A stretch of 51,140 nucleotides of DNA, taken from contig JAFYMC010000004.1 in NCBI GenBank assembly GCA_017556805.1, forward strand, positions 1 to 51,140, given 5' to 3'. Under the pieces are notes generated by a model. It saw nothing but the letters and a program-made list of their open reading frames with translations. It made no database searches and was not told the DNA's origin. Positions 4,463 through 47,742 of the stretch are shown here, in pieces. The position numbers and the translations under genes were made by a program. Within the stretch, counting starts at the first letter, position 1. Each line of letters begins with the position of its first letter. This DNA is from Lachnospiraceae bacterium (GTDB lineage Bacteria; Bacillota; Clostridia; Lachnospirales; Lachnospiraceae).

Positions 4463-4975
4463 CTATTTCAGAATGCCGATATGTACGAGTCCTTTTTCTT
4501 CGTAATAATAGGCAATCAGCCTTTTTGCATCGTAAATATATTTCGGAGCGGCAAAATTCAGATCCCCGTGTGTCATGCCGCCGTCTTCCAGTCTGGCATT
4601 TACTTCGTAAAATCCCCATTTGTTCATTTCGGTACTTACATAGGTGGCGTACTGATAGTACACGGTATAGCGGTGTACCTGGATGGCTCTGAGGATGACT
4701 TGGAAACCGTATTGGATAAGTATGACAACCAGGCACATAACAAGCAAGCCGGCGAAAACGCAGACAAATACGATAACGTGGGGGTTAGAAGGAACAAAAA
4801 AATTTTTCAAGGTGCTTCCGGAGGAAAGAAAGGCATGAATCAGATAAATAGCGAGAGCTCCTGCCATGATTAGTGTGGTAATCAGGGTGCCCTTTGCCGA
4901 TGAATAGTTCCAGCTGCCCTTACACCAGATGATTTCCTTTTTCTGTTGCTTCGTGGCGGACTTCCATTGGCTCAT
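4463..4975 (-). CDS. Hypothetical two-TM membrane protein coupled to the MATE gene
   Basis: A 170-aa protein not matched to a named family. Two hydrophobic segments (about residues 30-48 and 66-92) precede a polar C-terminal domain with several Tyr/Asp-rich strands (about 95-170), probably cytoplasmic. I chose the ATG at 4975 because its first bases form a 4-nt ATGA overlap with the MATE stop codon and GGAG lies eight bases upstream; the longer reading frame is unlikely. The overlap implies translational coupling to the MATE transporter. Its role is unknown. Confidence 0.7.
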   Translation of the reverse strand: MSQWKSATKQQKKEIIWCKGSWNYSSAKGTLITTLIMAGALAIYLIHAFLSSGSTLKNFFVPSNPHVIVFVCVFAGLLVMCLVVILIQYGFQVILRAIQVHRYTVYYQYATYVSTEMNKWGFYEVNARLEDGGMTHGDLNFAAPKYIYDAKRLIAYYYEEKGLVHIGILK

Positions 4976-6306
4976 GGTTTCATCTCCTTCTGCATCTTCT
5001 TGTAATATATAAAGCACAGTGCAATTCCGAATACGGTGGCTGCCGGTGCGGCAAGACCAATACCGGTCAGGGAGGCCTTCGGCTGTATGCTCATGATGTA
5101 AGACATCGGCAAACGGATCAGGAAGGACTGGGCCAGGCCCTGTGCCATAACAAAGAGGGTGCGGGAGTGGCCGTTAAAGTAGCCCATAAAGCTGAACAGA
5201 ATACAGGTGACTACGGCCTCCGGCGCAAAACCCCGCATAAATTCGAAGGCACGGGCAATGGCGGCCGGGTCCTCGGAGAAGACAGAGGCCAGCAAATCTC
5301 CTTTGAAAAAGGCCAACAAACCGATGGCTACACCGATACCGCAGCCCACAGCCATGCCGTAGAGCATGCCCTTCTTTGCGCGGTCTTCTTTGCCTGCACC
5401 GACGTTTTGGGCAACAAAGGAGGCCATACACTGGAAGATGGCGCTGGGAATCAGCATGACAAAGGATTGGATTTTCTGGGCAATGCCGTAACCGTTGGAG
5501 GCGTCCAGACCCAGGTTGTTGATAAAGGCACAAAGTGCCAGAAATGTCAGGTTGGTCAAAAATTCCTGTAACGCAATCGGGGTACCGATTTTTAAGAAGT
5601 CCCCGATTTCTCTGCCGAAGCGGATATCGGACTTCTTTAAGGTGAATGGAAGCTTCTGCTTTCTTATAATAAGAAGAGACAATACGACGCTGACAGCCTG
5701 GGCGGCTACAGTGGCAACGGCAGCACCGGCCACGTCCGTTTTGAATACCGCAACCAACAGTAGGTCGCCGAAGATATTTACCACACAGGCGATGCCTACA
5801 AACAACAGAGGTAATTTGGAATTGCCCATACCGCGGAAAATACAGCTGATGAGATTATACAACATAACGAAGATAAATCCACCGCCGCAGATACGGATGT
5901 ACTGCACGGTCAAATCAAGAGCCTCCTCCGGGGCCTTCATAAGCCTTGCGGCCGGCTCCGCAAACACAACCAGTAATATGGTAAATAAAACCGCAAAGGC
6001 CAGGAAAAAGGCAATGGAACGGCCCAGAAGCGGACCGATTTTGTGGTTATTCTTTTCTCCGATATATCTTCCGATTAAAATAGTAACACCGGACGCCAAT
6101 GCGCACAGCACAAAGGTCAGCAGATTCATAATATTGCTGCCGGTGGACACGGCAGACGGTGCGGCAGCGGTACCGAACCGGCCTACGATTAGCATGTCAA
6201 CGGCACCGTACATGGCCTGCAGTATGAGAGCTCCCAGAATCGGAAACATAAAGTGAATCATCTTTTTAAAAATACTACCCTCTGTAAAATCCTGTTTGTC
6301 GTTCAT
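4972..6306 (-). CDS. MATE family multidrug/Na+ efflux transporter
   Basis: A 444-aa polytopic protein with about 12 membrane segments and the MATE landmarks: an N-terminal FPILGALILQAMYGAVDMLIVGRFG segment (cited in parts: PILGALILQ, then VDMLIVGRFG), a conserved IGRYIGE region, and the internal repeat after residue 230. MATE proteins export cationic drugs or metabolites using a Na+ or H+ gradient. The ATG at 6306 is chosen over upstream in-frame codons because CAGGAG sits just before it and MNDKQDF begins a usual-length MATE protein. A consensus promoter (6368-6396, minus strand) drives it. Confidence 0.92.
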   Translation of the reverse strand: MNDKQDFTEGSIFKKMIHFMFPILGALILQAMYGAVDMLIVGRFGTAAAPSAVSTGSNIMNLLTFVLCALASGVTILIGRYIGEKNNHKIGPLLGRSIAFFLAFAVLFTILLVVFAEPAARLMKAPEEALDLTVQYIRICGGGFIFVMLYNLISCIFRGMGNSKLPLLFVGIACVVNIFGDLLLVAVFKTDVAGAAVATVAAQAVSVVLSLLIIRKQKLPFTLKKSDIRFGREIGDFLKIGTPIALQEFLTNLTFLALCAFINNLGLDASNGYGIAQKIQSFVMLIPSAIFQCMASFVAQNVGAGKEDRAKKGMLYGMAVGCGIGVAIGLLAFFKGDLLASVFSEDPAAIARAFEFMRGFAPEAVVTCILFSFMGYFNGHSRTLFVMAQGLAQSFLIRLPMSYIMSIQPKASLTGIGLAAPAATVFGIALCFIYYKKMQKEMKP

Positions 6307-8129: not shown

Positions 8130-8403
8130 TGCTGTGACGTTGATAGCTATGAAGCGTGAGGTTGCCGCGTGCCATACGCGGGTTTTCCGTGGAGCGAATG
8201 TCAAGTTAGGAAACTGGCGACAAGTCACTGTACAATACAGCTTCTGCTATAAGGCAGATAAACCGTGATGATAATCGGGAATTGTCCGGGATGCCGAGCT
8301 ATGCGCTCGGGTTTTTGTTCGGACAGGCGCGAAACACACGGGAGAGTGTACAGTCACCGCTTGTCGTACTGAAATTAAGTGCGAAAAGGAGGCGACTTTT
8401 TTT
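8130..8403 (+). promoter_or_regulatory. Structured S10 operon mRNA leader (candidate r-protein autoregulatory element/attenuator)
   Basis: About 270 nt between the promoter and rpsJ with dense complementarity. A long-range helix closes the 3' part: CGACAAG (8218-8224) with CTTGTCG (8360-8366), and ACTGTAC (8227-8233) with GTACAGT (8348-8354). Inside it, TGTCCG (8283-8288) pairs with CGGACA (8320-8325) around hairpin CCGAGC/GCTCGG (8294-8310), which is followed by GTTTTTG and looks terminator-like. Upstream, CCGCGT/ACGCGG (8165-8181) is also followed by GTTTT. In other bacteria L4 regulates S10 operons through leaders, but no match to a known leader class can be claimed. Confidence 0.7.
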
Positions 8404-20897: not shown

Positions 20898-21116
20898 ATG
20901 TCGAAGACAGATGTTGTTGAAATTGAAGGAACTGTTGTAGAAAAGCTGCCGAACGCTATGTTCCAGGTAGAGCTTGAGAACGGACACCGCGTGCTTGCAC
21001 ACATCAGCGGTAAGCTCCGTATGAACTTCATCAAGATTGTACCGGGCGATAAGGTAACCTTAGAGCTTTCCCCGTACGACTTGACCAAGGGAAGAATCAT
21101 TTGGAGAGATAAGTAA
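20898..21116 (+). CDS. infA: Translation initiation factor IF-1
   Basis: A 72-aa single OB-fold protein ([20 protein letters not shown] start, C-terminal [11 protein letters not shown]). It binds the 30S A site during initiation. AAGGAGG precedes the ATG. It is the last gene before the accessory block; in most Firmicutes rpmJ would follow directly, but here rpmJ lies 26.5 kb downstream. Confidence 0.98.
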
Positions 21117-21123
21117 GAGTTAC

Positions 21124-21155
21124 GGGCCCTGCGCTTTTGCGCGGGGCCTTTCTTT
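21124..21155 (+). terminator. Terminator after infA, overlapping the end of repeat element A
   Basis: GGGCCC-T-GCGC (21124-21134), TTTT loop, GCGC-G-GGGCC (21139-21148), then TTTCTTT. It closes the S10-spc transcript. Its 5' arm is also part of a 13-nt sequence (21128-21140) repeated in inverted form at 21532-21544. Confidence 0.8.
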
Positions 21156-21544
21156 GTGTAGGAGGCGTGACGCACTTCTTGCTGAGTGTGCGTTCTTGTA
21201 AAATCAGGCTTGTAGTATTGTCTGTATGGTGCTGGCGCAACGTTCCGTCAAACTTCCTCTAAGAACGACTAGGACGCTCGGGTGAGGCCTCGCGTCCAGT
21301 CTTTTCTAAGAGGTGATTTCGACTGCACTAATATTCGCGTAGGCAAAGTGAGCATGCGGACACCGTAAGGTGTCCAGTCATGCGAACGCGCCCGCGACCG
21401 AGCGACGACGTCGCGAGGCGCGCCCCTTCGGGAATGCACCATCACAGACAATATTACAAGCCTGATTTTAAGTGTTACGATATGAAACGCAAGAAGTAGC
21501 CACGCCGGACCTGCATAATTTTTTTGCCCGTGCAAAAGCGCAGG
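21128..21544 (+). repeat. Inverted structured element, copy A (candidate ncRNA or MITE-like)
   Basis: This 417-bp element folds end to end. The outer arms are CCTGCGCTTTTGC (21128-21140) with GCAAAAGCGCAGG (21532-21544) and ACTTCTTGC (21174-21182) with GCAAGAAGT (21489-21497). Inside, AAAATCAGGCTTGTA (21200-21214), TATTGTCTGT (21216-21225) and TGGTGC (21227-21232) pair with 21455-21469, 21444-21453 and 21436-21441. The core at 21236-21434 matches copy B in inverted orientation. Core helices: CCTCT/AGAGG (21256/21309), GGACGC/GCGTCC (21272/21292), GGACACC-GUAA-GGTGTCC (21358-21375), CGCGCC-CGCGAC with GTCGCG-A-GGCGCG (21387-21422), and a C(UUCG)G hairpin (21426-21431). No protein is encoded. 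Confidence 0.8.
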
Positions 21545-25227: not shown

Positions 25228-25932
25228 ATGTATATCGTAATATGTGAGGATGAGCGCAATTTTGCGGAGGAATTACAACAAGAGCTGGGGCGCATTCTGC
25301 AGCAAAAGGAAGTGGAATGTCGTATTTGTTACTGCGAAAACGGAGCGGCCTTTCGCCGGGAGATGGAGAAGGGAGAGGCCGTAGATTTACTGTTTATGGA
25401 TTTGCATCTGGGAGATGCGGATGGTGTGGAACTGGTAAAAGAGCAGGCGAAAAGCAGTATAAAGATTCCGACGGTGTTTTTATCCAGTATGGAGGAACGA
25501 ATCGCGGAGGGCTACGATGTGAACGCCTTTCATTTCCTGTTTAAGCGTAATTACAAGGAAAAACTGCCGGAGCTTTTGGAACGTTTTTTAAACGAGATTT
25601 ATGTGCGGAAAGCCATTGTGATTCAGGATCATGATACGGTAGTGCGACTGAATTTTGCGGAGATTTACTACGTGGAATCGGATAACCGGAATACGGCCAT
25701 TCATACGGCGGTTTCCTCTTATCAGGAGAAAAGCTCCATCCAGAATTTTGCGAAGCAGCTGCCGGAGGAATTGTTCATCGAGGCGTATCATTCGCTGTAT
25801 ATCAATATCGACCATATCCGCAAGGTAAATCCGGATACGGTGGTGTTGGATAACGATAAGGAGCTGCCGGTGAGCCGGAGAAAACGAAAGGCATTGATGA
25901 CTGCGGTAATGAGGAGGATACGGAGCCGATGA
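25228..25932 (+). CDS. LytTR-family response regulator (AgrA/VirR type)
   Basis: A 234-aa regulator. An N-terminal CheY-like receiver has acidic CEDER (7-10), the phospho-acceptor Asp58 in LFMDLHLGD, and a VFLSSMEE segment. A C-terminal LytTR DNA-binding domain (about 130-230) has IYYVESDNRNTAIHT and ELPVSRRKRKAL. LytTR proteins bind paired 9-bp direct repeats two helical turns apart. It overlaps the kinase gene by an ATGA 4-nt junction and heads the signalling/lipoprotein/ABC locus. AGGGAGG precedes the ATG. Confidence 0.93.
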   Translation: MYIVICEDERNFAEELQQELGRILQQKEVECRICYCENGAAFRREMEKGEAVDLLFMDLHLGDADGVELVKEQAKSSIKIPTVFLSSMEERIAEGYDVNAFHFLFKRNYKEKLPELLERFLNEIYVRKAIVIQDHDTVVRLNFAEIYYVESDNRNTAIHTAVSSYQEKSSIQNFAKQLPEELFIEAYHSLYINIDHIRKVNPDTVVLDNDKELPVSRRKRKALMTAVMRRIRSR

Positions 25933-27794
25933 AACGAAAAAGACAGTTTTATTTCTTTCTTGCGCTGCTGTTTCCGGTGATGCTGTTTTTAAACGGCGTG
26001 CTGTTTTATTCCATGAAATGTACCGGCGAATATATGCAGTCGGAGAATGTGTGGGGCGTGAAGCAGTCCATCCGGGTGGGCGATTACGCCAGACAAAAGC
26101 AGATTATCGGGAACTTACCGGAGGACGCGGAAGCTGCGGTGACCGCGGTGGATGAAATTATTACTTACCTGGAACTCAGCGATGCAAAGGTAAATGATGT
26201 ATATGCGAAATATATGGAGGCTTTGCTGGGACGTCCGTGGCTTCCGGTACCGACGGACCCGGAGGACAATGAGCTGATTCCCGAGGCTATGGTTACCATG
26301 GGGATTTCTTCCACAGATATGGAGAACTACAAAAAGGTAAAGGAATGCGTGGAAAATGTGGCCGGATATGGGGAGTATGCCGCCGGAGTGGCGGAGAATG
26401 CAGGTGTGATTGCGGATTCTCTGTACTCGATTTATGATGATGTATGGCTGTTAAAAAATCTGGCCCGGTGCCAGAAGGATTATTACGGACTGGAGTTTTT
26501 GCAGCTTACACCGGAGCTTGATAACGCGTATGAACTGGTGATTAATTATCATGCAACAGATGTGTTTGCATTTCTGTTTGCACTGGCAGTCACCTTTTTG
26601 TTCTGCCGGTATATCCGGGGGGATTCTTTTGGAGAAATTCAGAATGTAAGACGGACCACGGTGGTGATGCTGGCGGTGATGGTGTTTGGGCTCATCGGGT
26701 TTTACGGAGTCAATTTTGTAATTGCCCATAAGGTATACGGGTTGCCGTCCATGGGAACACCGCTACAGTCTCTGGAAAACTTTTATGTGTGTCCGTATCA
26801 GATTACGGTGGGAGGCTTTACGGCGCTGTACATCGGGATTAAGGTGATTATCCAATTGCTGGTTCTGGGGATTTGTATTCTGGCCTATACCGCAAGGAAG
26901 AGAGTTCTTGCTTGTGGGGTTACGCTGGCGTTCTTTGTTTTTGAGTTTATCCGGCATTTTGATATGCCGGAGCAGAATGCGGCGGGGGTATTCGGAGAAA
27001 TCAATTTGTTTTCCGGATTTACTCCGGAACGGTTCTATAACCGTTATCTGAATCTGAACGTGGCAGGGCTGATGCTGCCGCGCCTGCAGACCTTTCTGAC
27101 GGTGTTTTTCGTGGCATTTCTCGTGGTGGCGGTACTTGTGTACCGGCGCTTCGGCAGATGGCACAAGACCTCGAGACAGGAGGCAATGAACGTATACTTT
27201 GGGGAAATCGACAAGCGGTATCAGGAAACAAGAATGCTGTGGCATGACTTTAACAATCATCTGCTGGCCATAAAGGCACTGTACGAAAACGGCCATGAGG
27301 CCCAGGCGGCAAAGTATATCGATGAACTGTCGGAGCAAAGCTATGCAAGGCTGCTTCCGGCAAAGAGCGGTTCCGATACGCTGGACTTGCTACTGTTTAA
27401 AAAGCACCAACAGGCAGGTGAAATGGGTGTGACGGTCCGCTTTAAACTGGGCTGCAGCCTCGCGGGGCTTGCCATTACGGACTATGATATGTGCAGCCTG
27501 TTCGGAAACATTCTGGACAATGCCATTGAAGCGGTACACAAGGTGAAGGCAGCGGACGCAGAGGTGGTGCTGCGGGTAGAACAGCAGAACAGTATGCTGT
27601 ATATCTGTTGTGAAAACCCATATGAGGGTGAACTGATGAAGCAGGATGGGGAGTTAAAAACAACCAAAAAAGATGCGGCAAAGCACGGCATCGGCTTGTC
27701 GTCGGTGAAGCATATTTGCAAGAAATACAACGGTAGTCTGGAGGTAGAAACCGCAGACAACATCTTCCGTGTATCCGTTCTTCTGAATGTGTAA
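25929..27794 (+). CDS. GHKL histidine kinase (AgrC-like) with an ABC-2-permease-like membrane sensor
   Basis: A 621-aa sensor kinase. The N-terminal TM (about 8-28) is followed by an extracytoplasmic domain (about 30-208) and five to six further TMs (about 213-228, 244-266, 292-320, 326-343, 386-405). The kinase core has a phospho-acceptor His439 in LWHDFNNHL, N box NILDNAIEAV (527-536) and G box HGIGLSSV (586-593), as in AgrC. The membrane part is unusual: MGTPLQS (275-281), ITVGG (292-296) and INLF...YLNLNV (358-378) are collinear with motifs in the ABC-2 permease at 38387. I infer a permease-derived sensor. Confidence 0.9.
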   Translation: MKRKRQFYFFLALLFPVMLFLNGVLFYSMKCTGEYMQSENVWGVKQSIRVGDYARQKQIIGNLPEDAEAAVTAVDEIITYLELSDAKVNDVYAKYMEALLGRPWLPVPTDPEDNELIPEAMVTMGISSTDMENYKKVKECVENVAGYGEYAAGVAENAGVIADSLYSIYDDVWLLKNLARCQKDYYGLEFLQLTPELDNAYELVINYHATDVFAFLFALAVTFLFCRYIRGDSFGEIQNVRRTTVVMLAVMVFGLIGFYGVNFVIAHKVYGLPSMGTPLQSLENFYVCPYQITVGGFTALYIGIKVIIQLLVLGICILAYTARKRVLACGVTLAFFVFEFIRHFDMPEQNAAGVFGEINLFSGFTPERFYNRYLNLNVAGLMLPRLQTFLTVFFVAFLVVAVLVYRRFGRWHKTSRQEAMNVYFGEIDKRYQETRMLWHDFNNHLLAIKALYENGHEAQAAKYIDELSEQSYARLLPAKSGSDTLDLLLFKKHQQAGEMGVTVRFKLGCSLAGLAITDYDMCSLFGNILDNAIEAVHKVKAADAEVVLRVEQQNSMLYICCENPYEGELMKQDGELKTTKKDAAKHGIGLSSVKHICKKYNGSLEVETADNIFRVSVLLNV

Positions 27795-27891: not shown

Positions 27892-29286
27892 ATGGTTATG
27901 AAGAAACTACTGTTTACGGTGTTGCTTTTGCTCTGTGTGACAGGCTGTGTGGGGTGTAAGAAAGAGAAGGATGTAAAGGAAGAAGAACATGTAATCACTT
28001 CTGAGGATTATGAGAGAGGAAACACCACATCTATATTGCAGACGCCGATCCTGGTTACGGATATGGGGCATTATTATTACAGTGAAATGTACGGAGGCTG
28101 GCGGTATTACGATGTGGAAACCGGACAGGAGATGTACCTTTGCAATAAGCCGGAGTGTAAACACGACGGAAATGCATTCTGTGTAGCTACCAACTCGAAA
28201 TACCGGTACGAGCGGTTTACCATGTACAACGAAATGATTTATGCAACTGCAGTGGAAACCACAGATACCCAGTACTTATATAAACTGATTGCCATTGCCT
28301 TGGATGGGTCGGAACTGACAGAGGTTGCTACCTATATGACGACAGAACGAATGGGGCAGATACCGGACAACAACAGTATAAAGAAGAATCTTTGTATTCA
28401 TCGGAACAAAGCCCTGATTCCCATGACTGCCTTGGGACAAGACGGTTTGGCTGACAGCAGGGTCTACGGAACGGCATTGCTTGATTTGGATACAAAAGAG
28501 GTGGAGTATTTGGATGAAGAGCCCCTTGGAAGGGATAATCCGATGGTTTCCAATATTACCGGCTATGGGGATTACATTTATTATTACAGACGGGAAGGAA
28601 AGAAAAATGTTCTGCACAGACGGAATATCAGGGATAACACGGATGAGAGCTATAAGCTTCTGGCGGGATTTGACGGACGCTATGCCGTATTAGACGAGAA
28701 CACCGTAGTCTATTTGCGGTTACGGGAACGTGCCTATTCTTTGTGTGTTCATAACAGTGTCACAGGAGAAAATGTGGAAAGAGACCCGTTCGTAAGAACT
28801 GTACATGTTACTACATTACCGGATGGAACAACGAAGGAAAGGAAGGAACCGTACATAATAACCGAGATTGTCACGGACGGGACATACCTGTATGTAGAGC
28901 ATGGTGCGGTCCATAGCAGCAGTCATGATGGAGACGGACAAAACAGAAAGAGATGGTTACAGGCGGATGTAAGAGTATTGGATTATGACTTCAATGAAGT
29001 CGCCCTTGTGAATATGACGGACAGTAAGTTCCCGGAGGAACTGCCGATGATGGCGTGGAGGCTTGGCTTTGGAGGCAGTATCCGTGGGGGATATATTCAG
29101 GAGAATCTGTATTTCCTGGGGGAGGATATCTATGTAACCCTGTACGAAAGAGAGGTGCAGGAAGTGGAAGAATATTCAAGTCCCGTGTACGAGGACGGAC
29201 TTTATACCTTCAAGTTTAAGCGAAGCGATTTGTTAAAGGGTGACGTGACGATGGAATTTGTATACAAGAGAGAGGAACAGGAGTAG
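27892..29286 (+). CDS. Array lipoprotein 1 (LCNKPEC-x-H-x5-C family)
   Basis: A 464-aa lipoprotein. The signal peptide ends at a lipobox (CVTGC, lipid Cys near 19), then TSEDYERGN, a YYYSEMYGGWRYYD turn and the signature LCNKPECKHDGNAFCVATN with Cys84, Cys89, His91, Cys97. Later come IALDGSEL, IHRNKAL, YGTALLDLDTKEV, a GDYIYYYRREGKK repeat-like strand and C-terminal FKRSDLLKGD. Repeated Tyr-Gly-Asp strands suggest a beta-propeller, by inference. The ATG at 27892 or 27898 could be used. First of seven tandem paralogues; no named function. Confidence 0.8.
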   Translation: MVMKKLLFTVLLLLCVTGCVGCKKEKDVKEEEHVITSEDYERGNTTSILQTPILVTDMGHYYYSEMYGGWRYYDVETGQEMYLCNKPECKHDGNAFCVATNSKYRYERFTMYNEMIYATAVETTDTQYLYKLIAIALDGSELTEVATYMTTERMGQIPDNNSIKKNLCIHRNKALIPMTALGQDGLADSRVYGTALLDLDTKEVEYLDEEPLGRDNPMVSNITGYGDYIYYYRREGKKNVLHRRNIRDNTDESYKLLAGFDGRYAVLDENTVVYLRLRERAYSLCVHNSVTGENVERDPFVRTVHVTTLPDGTTKERKEPYIITEIVTDGTYLYVEHGAVHSSSHDGDGQNRKRWLQADVRVLDYDFNEVALVNMTDSKFPEELPMMAWRLGFGGSIRGGYIQENLYFLGEDIYVTLYEREVQEVEEYSSPVYEDGLYTFKFKRSDLLKGDVTMEFVYKREEQE

Positions 29287-29328
29287 AAGGAAATTCGGGA
29301 TATAAGGATAGAGAGGAGCTGGATACGG

Positions 29329-30594
29329 ATGAGAAAACTTTGTTTGATTTTAATCGCGGTGTGTCTGTTGGTGACGGTAGGTCCGGCCGGCTGTAACAGC
29401 AAGGATGGCGAGAAAGGAAAACAGACAGGCGATGCCCCTGCACCGGTATCGGAGGATTTGAAGCCGGGCAACGATACCGTCTTTGCAACGGAGAAGGGGT
29501 ACTATTATTACAGTTATGCAGAGAATGGGTTCCGTTATACGGACCGTGCTACAGGAAAGGATATGTATCTTTGCAATAAGCCGGAATGCCGACACGACGG
29601 CAATGAGTTTTGTGTGGCAACCAATGACAAATATAATATTGAACGTGTAGGGATGTACAGCGGACAGATTTTTGCAACGGCTATAGAAGTAACGGATACA
29701 CAGTATCGGTATCATCTGCTTTCCCTTGCCCTGGATGGGTCGGTGCTAAACGAACATGTAACCTATCTGACGTTGGAAAAGATGGGCGTGATACCGGCGA
29801 GGCATATCGATGGAAGTCAGTTGTATATTCACCGGAATGTGGCCATGATTCCTTTGTGGCTGGTAGGGGATGACGGAACGGAGACTACCCAGTATTTCGG
29901 AACCGCGATAATTAATCTGGAAACAAGGGAAGTAACCTATCTGGACGAGGAGCCGTTTTCTACGGAAAATGAAAAGGCAACCGATATTACCGCCCATGGA
30001 GACTACTTTTACTATTGCAGAAAAGAAGGAAAGAAGACGGTATTGCACCGGTACAACATAAAGGACGGTACGGACGAGACCCATAAGCTGTTGGTGGGCT
30101 TTAAAGGAAATTATGCGGTGCGGGACGACAATACAATTGTATATACCAAGACAGATGACAAGACCTTGTGCGTGTATCACAGAGAAACGGGAGAGAATGA
30201 AGAAAAGGTAATCTTAGAGCGATATCAGACGGTGCATTATCAGGACGGAAGTTCGGAAGAAAAGAGTGTGGCCTATACGGCATCGAATCTTAAAACGGAC
30301 GGGGAGTACATTTATGTGAAGGAGACGTACCTCCATGTATTTAACCGGGAATTGAAGGAAATCGCGACAATTAACATGGCGGAGGATATATCATTTGAGG
30401 AAGTAACCCAGACAGAAAATCAGGAGGAGGCTTCTATGAGTTATGGACGCCATTTGTACTATGAAGACGATGCGGTTTATTGTGTGGTGCCGGATGAAAA
30501 CAACAATCGGAAAGAGTACGTGTTCCAATGCGCAAAAGAGGTGTTTTTAAGCGGCGATCCGGAGTTTACGTTTGAATGTACACTACATTGGTAG
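29329..30594 (+). CDS. Array lipoprotein 2
   Basis: A 421-aa paralogue, the shortest of the seven. Lipobox GPAGC (Cys about 22), then VSEDLKPGN and signature LCNKPECRHDGNEFCVATN with Cys82, Cys87, His89, Cys95. It keeps LALDGSVL, IHRNVAM, YFGTAIINLETREV, LDEEPF and the HGDYFYYCRKEGKK strand. The C-terminus is FQCAKEVFLSGDPEFTFE, where the usual RSD has become KEV. It lacks the longer loop seen in paralogues 3 and 5 before the C-terminal motif. It starts 42 nt after paralogue 1. Confidence 0.8.
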   Translation: MRKLCLILIAVCLLVTVGPAGCNSKDGEKGKQTGDAPAPVSEDLKPGNDTVFATEKGYYYYSYAENGFRYTDRATGKDMYLCNKPECRHDGNEFCVATNDKYNIERVGMYSGQIFATAIEVTDTQYRYHLLSLALDGSVLNEHVTYLTLEKMGVIPARHIDGSQLYIHRNVAMIPLWLVGDDGTETTQYFGTAIINLETREVTYLDEEPFSTENEKATDITAHGDYFYYCRKEGKKTVLHRYNIKDGTDETHKLLVGFKGNYAVRDDNTIVYTKTDDKTLCVYHRETGENEEKVILERYQTVHYQDGSSEEKSVAYTASNLKTDGEYIYVKETYLHVFNRELKEIATINMAEDISFEEVTQTENQEEASMSYGRHLYYEDDAVYCVVPDENNNRKEYVFQCAKEVFLSGDPEFTFECTLHW

Positions 30595-30641
30595 AATGAG
30601 CGATTGGAGCAGGGATACACAGGGAACGAGGAGGTATACGG

Positions 30642-31961
30642 ATGAAAAAGATAATCGTATTGGGCTTGATTGTATTGGTTTTTTTGTGTCTTGCGGGTTG
30701 TAAGAAGGAAGCTCCAAAAGAATCGGTATTAAGCGTGGCGGTGTTTCCGGAGGATTATAGGAAAGAAACCGGGGGAATGATGTTGACGGAGCAGGGCTAC
30801 TATTATTGCAGCATGGAAAATCGCGACCTGCATTATTATGATTTTGCCACCGGAACGGATATGTATCTTTGTAACAAGCCGGAATGTAAGCACGACGGAA
30901 ATAAGTTTTGCGTGGCCACCAACGACAAGTATCGAATTGACCGGGTTTGTCTGTATGGCGGAAGAATCTTTGCCACAGCAGTGGAGGAGACCGATACCGC
31001 CTATCTGTTTAAGGTACTGCAGATTGCGTTAGACGGTTCCGAGATGAATGAGTTTGTGACTTATTATACGCTGGAGAAAACCGGCGTAACCACAGTGGAG
31101 TATGCGGATGACAGTTTGTTTATTCACCGCAACCGGATGGTGATTCCGATGCAGGTAAAGGGCCAGGGGGAGGACACGACGTATTACGGAACGGCGTGGG
31201 TGAATCTGGACACAAAGGAAGTATCCTATTCGGATGAAGAGGTGCTTAGCAAGGAGAATATTGCGCTTACCCATATGGACGGCTTCGGGGAGTATATCTT
31301 TTATTGTAAGCAAGTGACAAAAAAGAAGATGGAATTGTACCGGTATCATATGACAGACGGGACAGAGGAGACATTTAAGCTTGTGACCAGCTTCGGCGGT
31401 CAGTATGAGCCGTTGGATGAAAATACCGTTGTTTACATCAGAAAAAACGGCAGGACCTTTTTCGTCTATGACCATACTACGGGGAATAATGAGGAGAAGC
31501 AGTTAACTTTTACCTTCACGGAGCATTTTCATGATGAGGATGGCGCGGATCATATCTGGGAGCATGACTCGGAGGCGGTAGGACTGCGCTATGACGGGAC
31601 CTATTTCTATGTGGCGGATAAAAGCTATTTACGAGGGGATGGCGACCCGGAGGGCAGCGGAGAAAAGGTGATTATCGGAAATTCTTATCTGCATGTCTTT
31701 GACGGGTCATATAAGAAGCTTGCTGAGATGAATGTGGAGGAGGAGCTGACCAGACCGAAACCGTGGAACAGTTATGCGTATTTAAATAAATACCTGCATC
31801 ACTCCGACCCGAATGTGCATTTATGCTACTTCGGAGATACCGTGTACGGAGTATGGTCGAAGGTGGAAGCAAAGGAAGGGCATTATGTGGTGAAGTTCAA
31901 CCGGAGCGATTTGCTTGCCGGAAATCCGGAGTATGAGCTGGTGCTGAAGGAACTGCCGTAA
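30642..31961 (+). CDS. Array lipoprotein 3
   Basis: A 439-aa paralogue. Lipobox CLAGC (Cys20), short linker, signature LCNKPECKHDGNKFCVATN with Cys77, Cys82, His84, Cys90. It keeps IALDGSEMNEF, IHRNRMV, YYGTAWVNLDTKEV and SDEEVL in place of LDEEP. The GDYFYYC strand is altered to GEYIFYCKQVTKKK. It has an extra Cys in GYYYCSMEN (about 56). The C-terminus is FNRSDLLAGNPEYELV. GAGGAGG precedes the ATG. Confidence 0.8.
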   Translation: MKKIIVLGLIVLVFLCLAGCKKEAPKESVLSVAVFPEDYRKETGGMMLTEQGYYYCSMENRDLHYYDFATGTDMYLCNKPECKHDGNKFCVATNDKYRIDRVCLYGGRIFATAVEETDTAYLFKVLQIALDGSEMNEFVTYYTLEKTGVTTVEYADDSLFIHRNRMVIPMQVKGQGEDTTYYGTAWVNLDTKEVSYSDEEVLSKENIALTHMDGFGEYIFYCKQVTKKKMELYRYHMTDGTEETFKLVTSFGGQYEPLDENTVVYIRKNGRTFFVYDHTTGNNEEKQLTFTFTEHFHDEDGADHIWEHDSEAVGLRYDGTYFYVADKSYLRGDGDPEGSGEKVIIGNSYLHVFDGSYKKLAEMNVEEELTRPKPWNSYAYLNKYLHHSDPNVHLCYFGDTVYGVWSKVEAKEGHYVVKFNRSDLLAGNPEYELVLKELP

Positions 31962-31980
31962 AGGATACGGAGGGATATGG

Positions 31981-33318
31981 ATGAAGAGGATAGTTTTATT
32001 TGGATTGATGGTGTTGGGACTTGTGGCTTTCGCCGGCTGCTCCAAGGACAAGCCGGGCGAGACAACGAAGGCGGTGACTGCCGGAAAGACGGAGAATCAA
32101 TTCGTTCCGGAGGATTACGAGCCGGGGAACAGGACCAAGTATTTGTCCCCCATGATGAAGACGGACAAAGGCTTATATTACTACTCTTTTGCGGATAAGG
32201 GCATTCATTATTATGATCTTGCGACACAGAAAACCATGTTTCTATGCAATAAGCCGGAGTGCCGGCATGGCGGGAGTGAGTTCTGTGTGGCTACCAACGG
32301 AAAATATTTAACGCTGAGTCAATGCAAGTACAATGATGTGATTTTGGCGTTTGTGCTGGAGGAAACGGATACACAATATCTCTTTAAAGTACTTTCCATA
32401 GCCCTGGACGGCTCGGAAATGGATGAGGTGGCTACTGTACTGGAATTGGATAAGACGACAGATGATTTTTCTATTTATCAATGCTTTATGTATGCCCATC
32501 GGAATAAGGTATTTCTCACGTTTACCGGCTCGGGACAGGTGGAGACGGAATATCACGGAACGGCTGTGTTGGACTTGAATACGAAGAAAACGACCTTTTT
32601 GGATGAGGAGCCTTTCAGTAAAGATAATGTGGCAGTGTCTGATGTGAGTGGATACGGGGACTACTTTTATTATTGTAAAAAGGAAGGGAAAAAGCTTTTG
32701 CTACACCGTTACCACATTGAGAACGGGACGGATGAAAGCTTCCGGTTGTTGACGAATTTCTCCGGACAATATGTATTGCTGGATGAGGATACAATCGCCT
32801 ATATCAGGAGTGCGGGAACAGTAATTTGCACCCATCAGATTTCCACCGGACACAACACAGAGCATACAAAAATAATGCGTTATGCATATTGGTATAAGTG
32901 GCAGGAGAAAACTTTTATCCGATATGATGAAAAGAGCGAAAGTGAAGTGGTCCAGCTTTTGACGGACGGTACATATGTCTATGCACCGGAGATATACAGA
33001 GAGTATCGGGATACGGATGAAAATGGGGAGGAGATTGTTGTCAGAAGAGAAGGCTATATTCACGTGTATAATCAGGCGCTGGAAGAAATTGCTTTGGTGA
33101 ATATGGCAGAGGCTGCGGCTTCGTTAGGTTTTGATGACATGGAGTGGAGTGAAAAGAGTTATACCCAGATGCTCCACTACCTGGGTGAGGAAATCTATTG
33201 GAAACTGATACCGAAGGGGACAACGGATTCTGAGAAATATGTATTCCGTTGCAATCGCAGCGACTTTATAGCAGGGAAACCGAAGTTTGAGTATGTGTAT
33301 CAGTATAGCGGATACTAA
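31981..33318 (+). CDS. Array lipoprotein 4
   Basis: A 445-aa paralogue. Lipobox AFAGC (Cys20) followed by SKDKPGE, a leader shared with paralogues 6 and 7. The signature is LCNKPECRHGGSEFCVATN with Cys89, Cys94, His96, Cys102; the Asp after His is Gly here, the only such change in the array. It keeps IALDGSEMDEVATV, AHRNKVF, YHGTAVLDLNTKK, LDEEPF and GDYFYYCKKEGKK. The C-terminus is FRCNRSDFIAGKPKFEYV. Confidence 0.8.
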   Translation: MKRIVLFGLMVLGLVAFAGCSKDKPGETTKAVTAGKTENQFVPEDYEPGNRTKYLSPMMKTDKGLYYYSFADKGIHYYDLATQKTMFLCNKPECRHGGSEFCVATNGKYLTLSQCKYNDVILAFVLEETDTQYLFKVLSIALDGSEMDEVATVLELDKTTDDFSIYQCFMYAHRNKVFLTFTGSGQVETEYHGTAVLDLNTKKTTFLDEEPFSKDNVAVSDVSGYGDYFYYCKKEGKKLLLHRYHIENGTDESFRLLTNFSGQYVLLDEDTIAYIRSAGTVICTHQISTGHNTEHTKIMRYAYWYKWQEKTFIRYDEKSESEVVQLLTDGTYVYAPEIYREYRDTDENGEEIVVRREGYIHVYNQALEEIALVNMAEAAASLGFDDMEWSEKSYTQMLHYLGEEIYWKLIPKGTTDSEKYVFRCNRSDFIAGKPKFEYVYQYSGY

Positions 33319-33338
33319 GAAACAGAGGAGGGGGTCTG

Positions 33339-34820
33339 ATGAGAAAATGGTTTGCTGTGATAGTGACCGTGTTGTGTCTTGCAGTGCTTGCTGGGTGCAA
33401 TAAGAATACATTTTCAGAGCATTCGGGAGAAAAGACCGGATTTGTTTCCGAGGATTTTTATCAGGGCAATACATCCAGGTTCATGCCGGAACCTATGCTT
33501 ATGACGGAAAAAGGATATTATTATTACAGTGAAGGGTATGAGGGCTTTCGGTATTATGATATTGCCACTGGAAAGGATATGTACCTTTGTAATAAGCCCG
33601 AATGCAAGCATGACGGGAGTGCGTTTTGCGTGGCATCTAATAACAAATATAATGTAATCGATTACTGCTTGTATGATGATTGTATTTTAGCCTATGTTTT
33701 GGAAAAAACGGATACACAGCAGGTGTTTAAGGTGATTTCACTTGCGTTAGACGGCTCCTCCTTAAGCGAGGTGGCTACGGTTATGATGCTGGAAAAGACG
33801 GCACAGTCGACACCGGAGACCGGCGGTAGTTTTTATGTACACCGCAATAAGGCATTGTTGCTTATGTGGGCGGAAGCAGATGAGGATTTGGGAGATGTGG
33901 TATTGTATGGTACGGCCTTCCTTGATTTGGAGACGCGGGAAGTCACCTATCTGGACAAAGAACCGATGGCAATAGGTAATACGGAGCTTATGCATGTAAA
34001 AGCCCATGGAGACTATTTCTATTATTGCAAAAATGAAGGGAAAAAGGGCAAAAAGAAGATACTGCATCGCTACCATATTGCAGACGGAACGGATGAGTCG
34101 TTCTCGTTTTTGGTTGGATTTAACGGAGATTATGTGGTGGTGAATGATGTAACAGTGGCATATTTGAGAAAAGATAAAAGTGCGGTTTGCGTACATCATT
34201 TGGAAACGGGAGAGAATGAAGAAATTACGTTTGATATGGCAATGCTATATCGGTACAACCCGGATGGGACATTGATGACAAGTTCGTTTATGGAGGATGA
34301 CTATACGGATGAGGAACTTCAGGAAATACTGGCCCGTGGGGAGACACCCGAAATCGTAGAGCTTCCGTGGGTGTGGTATGTCAATAATTGTCCGGAGACA
34401 ATACTGTCGGATGGTGATTATATTTATATCCCTATGTCGAGTGAACGTATTTTGTCAAGTTACATTGAAAAGCAAACGGAAGACAGAGTATTTGGTTTTT
34501 TTCATCGGGATAGCGGGGAAGGTGCATGGATTCGGGTTTTTGACCGTGAGTTTAATGAAATCGCGCAAATCAATATTTATGATGCGGTGGAGGCGGTCCG
34601 GCCGGAAGGCACAGAATGGGAAATGAAGTACTACTCCATAAGTTTGCGATATATGGGAGAGGACATTTATCTTGAACTGTGTCCGAAGGGGAATACCTCG
34701 GAGTGGGAGGTGTTCCGATGTACGCGGGCAGAGTTCTTAAGCGGAAATCCGAAATTTGAGTATGTATTCCGAATGCACCGGGAGCAGAATGGAGATACAT
34801 TGTTATTGGATTCGCGGTAA
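33339..34820 (+). CDS. Array lipoprotein 5 (longest)
   Basis: A 493-aa paralogue. Lipobox VLAGC (Cys20), VSEDFYQGN, signature LCNKPECKHDGSAFCVASN with Cys84, Cys89, His91, Cys97. It keeps LALDGSSLSEVATV, VHRNKAL, LYGTAFLDLETREV, LDKEPM and GDYFYYCKNEGKK. Its extra length comes from an acidic insertion at about residues 310-390 before IRVFDREFNEIAQIN. The C-terminus is FRCTRAEFLSGNPKFEYVF plus a short hydrophilic tail. Confidence 0.8.
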   Translation: MRKWFAVIVTVLCLAVLAGCNKNTFSEHSGEKTGFVSEDFYQGNTSRFMPEPMLMTEKGYYYYSEGYEGFRYYDIATGKDMYLCNKPECKHDGSAFCVASNNKYNVIDYCLYDDCILAYVLEKTDTQQVFKVISLALDGSSLSEVATVMMLEKTAQSTPETGGSFYVHRNKALLLMWAEADEDLGDVVLYGTAFLDLETREVTYLDKEPMAIGNTELMHVKAHGDYFYYCKNEGKKGKKKILHRYHIADGTDESFSFLVGFNGDYVVVNDVTVAYLRKDKSAVCVHHLETGENEEITFDMAMLYRYNPDGTLMTSSFMEDDYTDEELQEILARGETPEIVELPWVWYVNNCPETILSDGDYIYIPMSSERILSSYIEKQTEDRVFGFFHRDSGEGAWIRVFDREFNEIAQINIYDAVEAVRPEGTEWEMKYYSISLRYMGEDIYLELCPKGNTSEWEVFRCTRAEFLSGNPKFEYVFRMHREQNGDTLLLDSR

Positions 34821-34857
34821 AGAAGGAGAAGTGTAATAACGAGAACGGAGAGTGCAA

Positions 34858-36243
34858 ATGAGAAAAGGTTTATTTACAGTATTGACGATTGTATGCCTCG
34901 CAACTTTTATGGCATGCTCCGGCGGAAAGGACAAGCCGGGCGAACAGCCGGGAGGGGCGACGGGGCATGTAACTGCCGGAAAGAAAGAGTATCAATTTGT
35001 TTCCGAGGATTTTGAACAGGGAAACCGTCCGGGTACTGTGGGAAATGCCATGATGCGGACAGATAAGGGCTTTTATCATTATAGCGACACCTTGGGCGGG
35101 TTTCGGTATTATGATACGGCCACGGGGAAGGAGATGTTTCTTTGTAACAAACCGGAGTGCAGACATGACGGAAACGAGTTTTGTGTAGCAACAAATGGGA
35201 AGTATACGGTGTTGGACTATTGTTTGTATGGAGAACGCCTCATGGTGTTTGCGGCGGAGGTGACGGAGACACAGGTGCTTTATAAGGTGCTGGCTTTGGC
35301 ATTGGACGGGTCATCTATGGATGAGGTGGCAACGGTGCTGGAATTGGAACGGTCTCCTGATATGAGTTTATATACAAGCCGGATGTATCTTCACAGAAAC
35401 AAGGCATTGCTTACCTTTACAACGGGGGCATCCTATGAGCAGGAAGATACCATGCATTACGGGACGGCATTGCTTGACTTGAATACAAAGAACGTTACCT
35501 TTTTAGAGGAAGAGCCTCTGGCAAAGGAAAATGTGGAGACTACCGATATTACTGCCTACGGAGACTATTTCTATTATTGCAAAAAAGAAGGAAAGAAAAC
35601 CGTTCTGCACCGGTATCACATTGAGAACGGAATCGATGAGACCTGTAAGCTTTTGACCAATTTTACGGGAGACTATGCGGTATTGGAGGAAGACTACATT
35701 GTATATTTGCGTAGCAGCCAAAAGGCACTCTGTACCTATCGTTTTTCTACCGGGGAGAATGAAGAGAAGGTAATGTTATATGAGAAGGTGCCGTGGTATG
35801 ATTCATACGGAAATCTGATTCATGAGACGGAGGAAGGAGTACCGGCGCAGGGACTGGTAACAGACGGGACCTATTTGTATGTACCGCAGGCAACGATACA
35901 TTTCGATGTTCCGTATTCAGATGGAAGAGTGGAAGAGTGGACAGAGGCAGAGTCCGCTTGCATCCGGGTGTTTAACAAGGAGTTGGAAGAGGTTACGGTG
36001 CTGAATTTAGCGGAGCAACTTCCTTTGGAGAACGGGGAGTATGATTGCAGTGCGGAGGAGAGCATTAGTCTCAGAACTACCCAGAATTTGGGCTTCCGCT
36101 ATATGGAAGAGGATATTTATTGGTGTCCGGTTTCCGTGCCGGATCAGCAAACTGTGGAAAATCATGTATATCATTGCAAACGCAGTGATTTCTTGGCGGG
36201 AGAACCGGAGTTTGAGTTTGTGTATGGATACAGTGTTGATTAG
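34858..36243 (+). CDS. Array lipoprotein 6
   Basis: A 461-aa paralogue. Signal MRKGLFTVLTIVCLATFMAC is nearly identical to that of paralogue 7 (lipid Cys20, with Phe at -3). Signature LCNKPECRHDGNEFCVATN with Cys96, Cys101, His103, Cys109. It keeps LALDGSSMDEVATV, LHRNKAL, HYGTALLDLNTKNV, LEEEPL and GDYFYYCKKEGKK. The C-terminus is YHCKRSDFLAGEPEFEFV. I start it at ATG 34858, eight bases after GGAG; an in-frame GTG six bases earlier is too close to that site. Confidence 0.8.
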   Translation: MRKGLFTVLTIVCLATFMACSGGKDKPGEQPGGATGHVTAGKKEYQFVSEDFEQGNRPGTVGNAMMRTDKGFYHYSDTLGGFRYYDTATGKEMFLCNKPECRHDGNEFCVATNGKYTVLDYCLYGERLMVFAAEVTETQVLYKVLALALDGSSMDEVATVLELERSPDMSLYTSRMYLHRNKALLTFTTGASYEQEDTMHYGTALLDLNTKNVTFLEEEPLAKENVETTDITAYGDYFYYCKKEGKKTVLHRYHIENGIDETCKLLTNFTGDYAVLEEDYIVYLRSSQKALCTYRFSTGENEEKVMLYEKVPWYDSYGNLIHETEEGVPAQGLVTDGTYLYVPQATIHFDVPYSDGRVEEWTEAESACIRVFNKELEEVTVLNLAEQLPLENGEYDCSAEESISLRTTQNLGFRYMEEDIYWCPVSVPDQQTVENHVYHCKRSDFLAGEPEFEFVYGYSVD

Positions 36244-36263
36244 AAAGAGGAGGAGGGATTTTG

Positions 36264-37586
36264 ATGAGAAAAGGATTATTTGCAGCATTGACGATATTGT
36301 GCCTTGCAGCCTTTGCCGGATGTTCAAAGGACAAGCCGGGTGAACCGGAGGCGACAAAAGGAGTGGCATCGGAAACAACGTTTGTATCCGAGGACTATAT
36401 CCCGGGAAGCGAAGCGCTTCGGAAGACGGACAAGGGAATTTATTATTACAACAAGAAACTGAATGCCTTCCGGTATATTGATTTCGGGACGGGAAACGAG
36501 ATGTATCTTTGCAATAAACCGGAGTGCAGGCATGACGGCAATACCTTTTGCGTTGCCACAAATCAAAACTATACTATAGACAGATTTTGTATTTATAACG
36601 GAAAAATCATAGCGACGGGAGTGGAGGAGACCGATACGGAGTATTTGTATAAGGTATTTACCATAGCCCTTGACGGTTCGGAGATGAACGAGATTGCGAC
36701 TTACCATACGGCGGTTAAAAACGGATCGGCCGGAGGCGTTTCCGAACGGAACGGTGTTCTTTATGTACACCGGAACAAGGTATTGTTAAGGCTTGCTATC
36801 CCGGGACAGGAGGGGCTGGAGGACAGTGCGCAGTACGGGACTGCAATCCTGGATTTGAATACAAAGGAGATAACCTGGTTGGACGAGGAGCCGGTCAGTA
36901 AAGATAATGTATCGGTTACGGATATCTTCCCACAGGGGGATTATTTCTACTACTGCCAAAAAGAAGGTAAGAAGACGGTACTGCACCGGTATCGCATTAC
37001 CGACGGAATCCATGAAACTTTTAAGCTTTTGACAGGGTTTAAGGGGATTTACACGGTGTTGGGGGAAAACATTTTTTATTCGAAGGGAAACGGAGATGTA
37101 CTTTGTGTCCACCATATAAATACGGGTGAAAATGAGGAGAAGCCGTTGTCAAGGACGCATATAAAATATGCGTGGGACGGAACCGGAGAGGAAGAAGAGT
37201 GGAAGTATAGAATTACGGATTTACTGACGGATGGAACCTATCTTTACATTCCGGAACCTACGAGCTCCTTTGTGAGTAATGAACCGGATGCCGGTGGCGT
37301 GGCGGAATGGACGGAGGCATGTCTTAATATTTTTGACGGCAACGGAACTGTGGTGAACTCCCATGACCTAGTAGAAGAACTGCAGTGTGAAGCAAACGGG
37401 GAAGCGGTATACGGTGAGACTGAGGATTTGTATTTTACGGGAGAAGAGGTTTATTGCAGAATGCGTTCGGAGAATGAAGCTAACTATGATAAGAACTATA
37501 TTTTTAAGTGTAAACGCAGTGATTTGCTGGAGGGTAATCCGAAGTTTGAGTATGTAGTGGAAACGGAGTCGGGGGTCTGGTATTAG
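36264..37586 (+). CDS. Array lipoprotein 7
   Basis: A 440-aa paralogue. Signal MRKGLFAALTILCLAAFAGC (Cys20), then SKDKPGEPE. Signature LCNKPECRHDGNTFCVATN with Cys83, Cys88, His90, Cys96. It keeps IALDGSEMNEIATY, VHRNKVL, QYGTAILDLNTKEI, LDEEPV and GDYFYYCQKEGKK. The C-terminus is FKCKRSDLLEGNPKFEYVV. The ATG at 36264 follows GGAGG by about eight bases. It lies 26 nt before the ABC ATPase, so array and transporter probably share a transcript. Confidence 0.8.
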   Translation: MRKGLFAALTILCLAAFAGCSKDKPGEPEATKGVASETTFVSEDYIPGSEALRKTDKGIYYYNKKLNAFRYIDFGTGNEMYLCNKPECRHDGNTFCVATNQNYTIDRFCIYNGKIIATGVEETDTEYLYKVFTIALDGSEMNEIATYHTAVKNGSAGGVSERNGVLYVHRNKVLLRLAIPGQEGLEDSAQYGTAILDLNTKEITWLDEEPVSKDNVSVTDIFPQGDYFYYCQKEGKKTVLHRYRITDGIHETFKLLTGFKGIYTVLGENIFYSKGNGDVLCVHHINTGENEEKPLSRTHIKYAWDGTGEEEEWKYRITDLLTDGTYLYIPEPTSSFVSNEPDAGGVAEWTEACLNIFDGNGTVVNSHDLVEELQCEANGEAVYGETEDLYFTGEEVYCRMRSENEANYDKNYIFKCKRSDLLEGNPKFEYVVETESGVWY

Positions 37587-37612
37587 GAAAGTAAGAGAGG
37601 AGGCAGTTGATT

Positions 37613-38374
37613 GTGCTGGAATTAATTAATGTAACCAAAAAGTACGGCAACAAGACCGCATTAAATGATCTGAGTGTGAAGTTTGAGACCGGAGTCTACG
37701 GGCTTCTAGGGGCCAACGGTGCGGGCAAGTCCACCATGTTGAATCTGATTACGGACAACATTCCCCGGACCTCCGGAGAGATTTTGTATAACGGAAAGGA
37801 TATTCTGTCCCTGGGGAGAGGCTACCGCAAGAGAGTGGGCTACACCCCGCAGCTACAGGGTATGTACGAGGATTTCACGGCGAGGGATTTTCTGCATTAC
37901 ATAGGGGCGTTGAAGGGAATGAAGCGGGGAGCTTGTAAGAAGCAGACGGAGCAGTTCCTGGATATTGTTTGTCTGGCGGGGGATGCCCATCATAAGCTGG
38001 GTTCCTTTTCCGGCGGTATGCGGCAACGTGTGCTTTTGGCGGCGGCTATGCTGGACGAGCCGGAAATCTTGATTCTGGACGAGCCGACGGCGGGCCTTGA
38101 TCCGACCCAGCGTATTCGTCTGAGGGATTATATCGCATCCGTGGCGACAGAGCGGACAGTACTTCTGGCGACCCATGTCATCGGAGATATCGAGACCATT
38201 GCGAAAAAGGTGCTGTTGCTTCATCACGGAACCCTTTGCCGGTTTGCTCCGATTCCGGAGCTTTTGTCGGAGGCGGAGCGGCTCATGACAGAGAAAGGAC
38301 AATTACCGGCGCATGCGCTAACCTTGGAGGATGTGTATTTGTTCCATGCCGACGAACAACTGACGGAAAACTAG
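37613..38374 (+). CDS. ABC transporter ATP-binding protein
   Basis: A 253-aa stand-alone ABC ATPase. Walker A GANGAGKST (33-41), Q-loop in YTPQLQGMYEDF, signature SFSGGMRQR, Walker B ILILDEPTAGLDP and H-loop LATHVIGD. The type that pairs with ABC-2 permeases is clear from GLLGANGAGKST and the LDPTQR D-loop. I prefer GTG 37613 (MLELINVTKKYG); a TTG six bases earlier is possible, with GGAGG upstream of both. It partners with the permease 12 nt downstream. Confidence 0.92.
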   Translation: MLELINVTKKYGNKTALNDLSVKFETGVYGLLGANGAGKSTMLNLITDNIPRTSGEILYNGKDILSLGRGYRKRVGYTPQLQGMYEDFTARDFLHYIGALKGMKRGACKKQTEQFLDIVCLAGDAHHKLGSFSGGMRQRVLLAAAMLDEPEILILDEPTAGLDPTQRIRLRDYIASVATERTVLLATHVIGDIETIAKKVLLLHHGTLCRFAPIPELLSEAERLMTEKGQLPAHALTLEDVYLFHADEQLTEN

Positions 38375-47628: not shown

Positions 47629-47742
47629 GTGAAAGTAAGATCTTCCGTAAAACCGATTTGCGAAAAATGTAAGATCATCAAGAGAAAGGGCGCCATCAGA
47701 GTTATCTGTGAGAACCCGAAGCACAAACAAAGACAGGGCTAG
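47629..47742 (+). CDS. rpmJ: 50S ribosomal protein L36
   Basis: A 37-aa L36 ([20 protein letters not shown] start) of the zinc type: CxxC (Cys11, Cys14) with Cys27 and His32. The start is GTG 47629, about nine bases after AAAGGAG; it is too short for most ORF callers. Normally it sits directly after infA; here 26.5 kb separates the two genes. Confidence 0.95.

Follow-up and report, generated by a model that had tools for sequence, protein, structure and literature searches.

The window, a 51,140-nt stretch of the genome of a Lachnospiraceae bacterium (contig JAFYMC010000004.1 of assembly GCA_017556805.1), holds two copies of a large palindromic element (Table 1): copy A, at the end of infA, and copy B, on the opposite strand between a methyltransferase gene and rpmJ. 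The original prediction, which described copy A as a large structured element with covarying helices, placed it correctly: the interval follows the infA stop codon (21116) and overlaps the infA terminator, part of which is taken into the locus-specific outer stem of the element. A similar infA terminator occurs without any element in G008, a genome of the same genus.

Table 1. Coordinates of copies A and B, their parts, and the adjoining genes in the window
Feature	Position	Strand	Basis or remark
infA (IF-1), whose end carries copy A	20898..21116	+	Pfam PF01176, 2.1e-27; stop codon read
infA intrinsic terminator, GGGCCCTGCGC TTTT GCGCGGGGCC TTTCTTT	21124..21155	+	sequence; overlaps outermost left arm of copy A
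Copy A, whole palindromic element	21128..21544	+	fold z -14; best match in own-genome scan
Inner locus-specific left arm of copy A	21199..21225	+	27 nt, 96% complementary to 21444-21470
Type I core of copy A	21225..21354	+	model R1, 101.6 bits, E 2.7e-20
Module 2 piece within type I core of copy A, GGCAAAGTGAGCATGCG ... GTCGCGAGGCGC	21335..21421 (approximate)	+	comparison by eye with stand-alone module 2 copies
CCCUUCGGG hairpin closing type I core	21424..21432	+	invariant in alignment A1
Inner locus-specific right arm of copy A	21444..21470	+	complementarity to 21199-21225
Copy B, palindromic element	~47089 to ~47552 (outer limits approximate)	-	paired arms; core-model and own-genome matches
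Module 2 piece in copy B	about 47221-47310	-	
Type I core of copy B	47300-47432	-	model R1
rpmJ (L36), adjoining copy B	47629..47742	+	Pfam PF00444

Elsewhere in the window, an S10-Clostridia ribosomal protein leader lies at 8141-8223 (93.6 bits). The 26-kb block from infA to rpmJ contains a LytTR response regulator and GHKL sensor kinase pair (25228-27794), seven tandem paralogous genes of about 420-490 aa (27892-37586; the sole one scanned, at 30642-31961, lacks a Pfam match and, by eye, begins like a lipoprotein) and, beyond these, a gene for an ABC transporter ATPase (37607-38374).

Copy A folds from end to end as predicted, at -219 kcal/mol versus -137.5 +/- 5.8 for 100 dinucleotide shuffles (z -14), none of which folds as well. 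The core of about 200 nt recognized earlier is structured but composite: it joins a type I core to part of another element, module 2, that stands alone elsewhere. Copy B is likewise a type I core with a module 2 piece. Of the two loops singled out, UUCG is common to both copies, whereas GUAA occurs in copy A only, copy B having GTGTG there. The paired differences named between the core helices of copies A and B are all present in the two sequences; that of GGACGC versus GTCTC, although it exists, does not reflect slow drift of two copies but one of two hairpin alleles.

A BLAST search of this genome with copy A gives 48 matches, mostly in two groups, at query bases 109-204 (the type I core) and about 248-295 (part of module 2). 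With R1, a covariance model of 14 type I cores (alignment A1), all of which lack the module 2 piece, we found 22 type I copies in this genome. Across 61 genomes, R1 finds copies in 10, namely 9 of the 10 genomes of the genus (22 in this one, then 11, 37, 21, 16, 24, 23, 18, 0, and 1) and G035, a member of another genus of the same family that has 16; the same search, with stricter filters, found none in the other 50 of the 51 relatives from outside the genus. A degenerate pattern run over a public genome set matches 63 stretches (59 titled as Lachnospiraceae bacterium MAGs, many from ruminant guts), some of which may be genomes counted before. Nine were inspected: three are STE_209, with sequences equal to those of G035; four further records have both core and palindrome (L173, Clostridia bacterium; L175 and L221, Lachnospiraceae; L211, uncultured Roseburia); and two, from Limisphaerales (L179) and Myxococcales (L200), have no palindrome and were taken as chance. 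With regard to a phage origin, an exact-pattern search of a viral collection gave 3 candidate matches.

We set aside the idea that copies A and B are the inverted ends of a 26-kb mobile island: copy B has orthologues in 4 other species, and on contig C33 of G004, infA (4548-5542) and the rpmJ-side copy (32340-32475) lie about 27 kb apart, although no type I core stands at infA there. Two type I copies in G035 (C12:24097-24578; L058, L149; L220) lie about 370 bp apart in opposite orientation.

The type I core, of about 135 nt, is built from two helices, the first of which closes it, together with a hairpin that varies and conserved blocks such as AACG and CUAAG. The hairpin has two main alleles in the genus, which differ as blocks, and orthologous copies can differ in the allele or in the presence of module 2. 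The covariation first noted between copies A and B holds with more homologues: both-sided changes affect 9 of the 29 predicted pairs among 14 copies from this genome, and among 17 other sequences (14 copies from G035 and three from other records) both sides are changed in 64 of 408 cells, compared with 15.6 in shuffles, and one side only in 5. In these 17 sequences, the covariation score is 0.464 (0.188 in shuffles), with 0 of 500 shuffles reaching either the score or the both-sided count, and 17 pairs show both-sided changes versus 9.8 in 500 shuffles. The underlying 24-pair structure, drawn by eye from the same 17 sequences on which it was tested, forms in 93.6% of cells, and sliding its 3' partner cuts pairing to 31-44%; a measure of further pair types is weaker, 34 of 500 shuffles being as high.

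The original prediction recognized no known family, and neither do we: the window and eight type I loci (L004, L006, L012, L040, L049, L173, L175, and L221) are without an Rfam match at threshold in the element, and a lax threshold gives only scattered weak matches on copy A (best E 0.1). A match of L049 to MIR447 (52.8 bits versus a gathering score of 200; E 9.4e-10) was rejected because this microRNA precursor model was taken to match any long hairpin. In the literature searched, we came across no account of type I, nor of TwoAYGGAY (RF01731), the Rfam motif treated below, as lying within locus-specific palindromes. Type I has the mark of a new family, a conserved covarying core in many copies, and we read it as a family of dispersed structured gene-end elements.

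Module 2 is present in 31 copies in this genome; all 10 genomes of the genus have it, with copy numbers from 10 to 37, and none was found in the 51 other relatives. On its own it forms a structured element of about 130 nt, with 18 of 39 predicted pairs double-changed among 10 aligned copies (12 were cut out; L014 and L020, being longer, were omitted). By eye, it often directly follows the T-run of a terminator. It lies between a T-box leader terminator and the next gene at L015 and L016 of this genome (G000), where Rfam confirms the T-box, and by eye at L017 and L022. At C9:45136-45363 of this genome (L019, L026, and L027), its 3' part is repeated in tandem with 90-nt spacing. In other genomes it is found about 100 nt or less from an opposite-strand TwoAYGGAY copy (G003:C45, G004:C38, G005:C383, G006:C44, and G007:C53).

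The core folds into a branched structure, and nearly every tested copy is enclosed in a long, almost perfect stem specific to its locus. The two arms of one copy align with a score of 16 or more in 111 of 117 distinct type I copies (103 from the genus and 14 from G035; L149 is the same copy as L058 and was counted once, and L151 had no match), a score reached in 3 of 2,000 draws that combined arms from different copies of the same genome (mean 8.7; 99% point 13.5). At many loci of the genus, about 50 bp are paired before the first interruption. In G035 this first stem measures either about 33 bp or, in an extended form, 50 to 131 bp, and just outside the stems stand conserved motifs, GGACGC to the left and GCTGGTT to the right, that look like selected ends. 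By eye, the longest G035 stems (L142 and L148, about 90 to 131 bp) hold inner GCTGGTT-like end motifs, as if they had grown in steps. Among 69 copies preceded by a suitable open reading frame, 6 have a far (right) arm that pairs with the end of this upstream coding region, versus 0 of 1,380 swapped-arm controls; we prefer this stricter test to a laxer alignment (29 of 73 copies) that had no control and some of whose results look spurious. In L068, 20 of 20 coding bases are paired. The coding end at its orthologue, L035, is a different one, and the far arm there pairs with that end (16 of 17), so that copying seems to have continued after the species split.

Pairing that is selected at the level of RNA would be expected to tolerate G-U far more than A-C. 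Isolated non-Watson-Crick positions in the arms of the genus comprise 68 G-U, 51 A-C, and 114 transversions, against 6,154 Watson-Crick pairs; under six settings, G-U exceeds A-C by a factor of 1.1 to 1.4, a slight lead (p 0.10 to 0.17). The corresponding counts are 6, 4, and 11 in G035 and 14, 21, and 29 in TwoAYGGAY arms; in this genome alone, G-U outnumbers A-C by 19 to 8 (p 0.05; ratio 1.5 to 2.4 over settings). A cruder count over fixed 60-nt arms favored G-U (43 versus 6 in G035, p 6e-8; 221 versus 166 in the genus, p 0.006), and it was replaced since we judged it to mix in gap-shifted and conserved positions; with isolated mismatches, the bias of G035 vanished and that of the genus became the 68 versus 51 given above. 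Of 74 orthologous pairs, 49 have arms too diverged to compare, and in the 25 that are alignable, 56 arm positions have exchanged one Watson-Crick pair for another by changes in both arms, 63 have changed in one arm only (16 becoming G-U and 47 something else), and 15 have changed in other ways. Mean ortholog identity is 0.81 in the gene flank (some flanks being badly aligned) and 0.81 in the core, versus 0.63 and 0.60 in the two arms, and the arm changes would fit template switching together with a high rate of change.

The predominance of both-sided changes in the core (64 versus 5) and the mismatch spectrum of the arms together point to copying between arms in DNA. The original prediction had treated paired changes as the signature of a functional RNA, a step that these counts do not bear out: the covariation is real but is not alone proof of a functional RNA, because template-switch copying in DNA explains the changes better than RNA pairing alone. 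As we read it, covariation is driven by DNA copying, at least in the stems. The reading in which the core is a protein-binding or regulatory RNA, transcribed from gene ends or from the opposite strand, with a protecting stem whose pairing is selected in RNA, seems to us possible but rather improbable. It would account for strong covariation beside conserved blocks, for the cUUCGg of the type I core and the GUAA loop of copy A (both on the + strand), and for the G-U preference of the cruder count; little or no wobble excess is left among isolated helix mismatches, however, and an RNA gene would hardly be expected to vary from 0 to 37 copies among sister species.

Type I copies of the genus lie between convergent genes in 46 of 106 cases and between divergent genes in 8 of 106, and the left-hand gene is co-directional in 83 of 105 (counts from a simple ORF caller, with orthologues counted apart). 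Placement in the genus thus favors gene ends and avoids promoters, and the type I copies of G035 show no gene-end bias. TwoAYGGAY copies are antisense to the right-hand gene in 17 of 25 cases, so that the strand of any functional RNA is ambiguous between the two families, a further point against the functional-RNA reading. The gene-end and convergent bias, as well as the host terminators found inside the outer arms at several loci, would suit a large bidirectional terminator or an insulator of converging genes; we regard this as very unlikely, given that an ordinary terminator already precedes the element at infA, that a terminator has no need of a conserved 135-nt core, and that the G035 copies lack the bias.

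SbcD (TIGR00619) is over the cut-off in 0 of 10 genomes of the genus and in 33 of the 51 other relatives, among them 21 of the 27 that belong to the same family. The genomes compared are MAGs with a completeness of 72 to 97%, and the loss represents one lineage rather than independent tests; the link between SbcD loss and palindromes is only suggestive, because G035 has SbcD and still keeps long stems. Neither of the two mobilizing-enzyme families searched tracks the type I copies: of 11 genomes, only 3 have a Y1 transposase (PF01797) above the cut-off, including G008, where type I is absent, and only 3 have RVT_1 (PF00078) above it. These distributions weigh against a single-stranded DNA mobile element, in which a single-strand recombinase, of the HUH type or another, would recognize the hairpin and every insertion would rebuild the arms, by the logic of REP, attC, or IS200-like elements, as do the short, family-shared stems of REPs as described in the available excerpt of PMC3733652. 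Such an element would explain the DNA-level pairing of arms, the fixed ends GGACGC and GCTGGTT in G035, and the different post-infA cores of sister species, but we consider it unlikely.

Sister species differ in the core, type I or TwoAYGGAY, that they carry at the site after infA. An infA query matched 8 of the 10 genomes of the genus: the site holds type I with module 2 in this genome; a TwoAYGGAY core within a long palindrome, on the strand opposite infA, in G003, G005, G006, and G007 (Rfam, 60 to 116 bits), with a module 2 copy ahead of it in G007; an outer stem with a short loop in G004 and G001; and the terminator only in G008. TwoAYGGAY itself has 16 copies in this genome and up to 33 in relatives (11 to 33 in 7 of the 10 genomes of the genus), with no match in G002 or G035. 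Its stems extend beyond the Rfam model: among 25 of 30 loci (5 at contig edges were left out), 22 have locus-specific stems scoring above 20 and three score 16 or less, where the 95% point of the mismatched-arm control is 12.5, although one control draw reached 186.7.

A 2014 paper (PMC4333381, as excerpted) reports a poorly conserved external stem for TwoAYGGAY and proposes CsrA binding. AYGGAY loops are seen in a TwoAYGGAY copy at infA in a sister species, and CsrA is found in 10 of 10 genomes of the genus, G002 included, with no match in G035. Shared architecture and CsrA-like loops (PMC4333381, as excerpted) thus lend the functional-RNA reading some support, and if TwoAYGGAY were a CsrA sponge, selection on the arms would be expected at the level of RNA. 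Against this, G002 has CsrA without a TwoAYGGAY match, and no conserved GGA loop is seen in type I, nor, by eye, do its cores contain two AYGGAY-loop hairpins. For type I, CsrA was set aside as an explanation because G035 has 16 copies and no CsrA match.

We lean toward the view that copy A belongs to a dispersed, noncoding gene-end repeat family of uncultured gut Lachnospiraceae whose stems are kept by template switching in DNA and whose core is largely selfish. Terminator hairpins at gene ends would be the starting point of the palindromes; during DNA replication, a switch of the nascent strand to the opposite arm as template would both make the stems and keep them complementary; and the loss of SbcD in the genus may let such palindromes persist. 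The core would spread, and be homogenized, by ectopic conversion or insertion, and we propose that the element is tolerated because it sits between gene ends and not in promoters. A role of the core as RNA, perhaps that of a protein ligand within 3' transcripts, would come in addition to this and is hypothetical. Several observations count against this template-switching account: G035 has SbcD over the cut-off and yet stems up to about 131 bp; stem length is fairly constant in many copies (about 50 bp in the genus and about 33 bp in G035), a feature that free template switching would not predict; the motifs flanking the G035 stems resemble selected ends; one-sided ortholog changes are as many as both-sided ones (63 versus 56); G-U is slightly ahead of A-C in the genus and in this genome alone; neither enzyme family follows the copies; the gene-end bias is absent from G035; and no case of transposition, target-site duplication, or clean empty site came to light for type I.

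More tentatively, and with well under an even chance of being right in our estimation, interchangeable cores (type I, TwoAYGGAY, and module 2 pieces) may be installed at gene ends within a locus-specific palindrome of set length that is written by copying the flank. If this were true, an Rfam "RNA motif" would really be the center of a palindrome-forming mobile element that acts at the DNA level. Apart from this conjecture, the findings recast the orphan family TwoAYGGAY as one of several cores in the same type of palindrome and suggest a link between SbcD loss and giant palindromes. The elements also offer a natural case in which textbook covariation can mislead, since the compensatory changes seem to arise in DNA with few G-U steps, and the roughly 100 parallel palindromes of one genus make template-switch maintenance of hairpins directly testable.

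Bacterial MITEs are short, noncoding, dispersed elements with inverted-repeat ends. The original prediction, of a noncoding RNA or a MITE-like element, holds for the structure, the covariation, the many copies, and the absence of an Rfam match, and not for the inference from an RNA signature. Its MITE half is only partly apt: type I has dispersed copies with a common core but no terminal inverted repeats common to the copies, the arms being unlike between loci, so that the shared part is the center and not the ends. REPs, in the available excerpt of PMC3733652, are palindromes of 20-40 bp whose stems are common to a family and which carry a tag, GTAG or CGTC, those with CGTC being said to lack a RAYT. 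Type I resembles them in being dispersed, palindromic, located at gene ends, present in many copies, and variable between relatives, and differs in its locus-specific stems of 33-131 bp around a structured core of 100-220 nt; on that excerpt, neither the size, the family-shared stem, nor the tag of a REP applies, although GGACG, the reverse of the CGTC tag, stands at the left end of G035-type copies only. An association with a RAYT (Y1), as in GTAG REPs, is likewise not seen, PF01797 being over the cut-off in 3 of 11 genomes and not following the copies.

TwoAYGGAY resembles type I in its structured core, many copies in the genus, locus-specific outer stem, and presence at infA in 4 sister species; its poorly conserved external stem is a property of type I too, the stems of both families being specific to the locus. 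The two differ in that their orientations relative to the neighboring gene are opposite, in that type I also occurs in G035, which has neither a TwoAYGGAY nor a CsrA match, and in that the window and the eight type I loci contain no RF01731 covariance-model match above the gathering score. Comparisons of Rfam matches, loops, and stems, at infA and elsewhere, indicate the same architecture, yet not one sequence family. With the hairpins that Monttinen and Loytynoja attribute to template switching, a mutation process they describe in RNA genes (PMC8794818, as excerpted), type I shares changes in both arms without wobble intermediates and arms that copy flanking sequence; relative to that excerpt, what differs is that here, in a single genus, repeated cores lie within about 100 tested palindromes that such copying would maintain.
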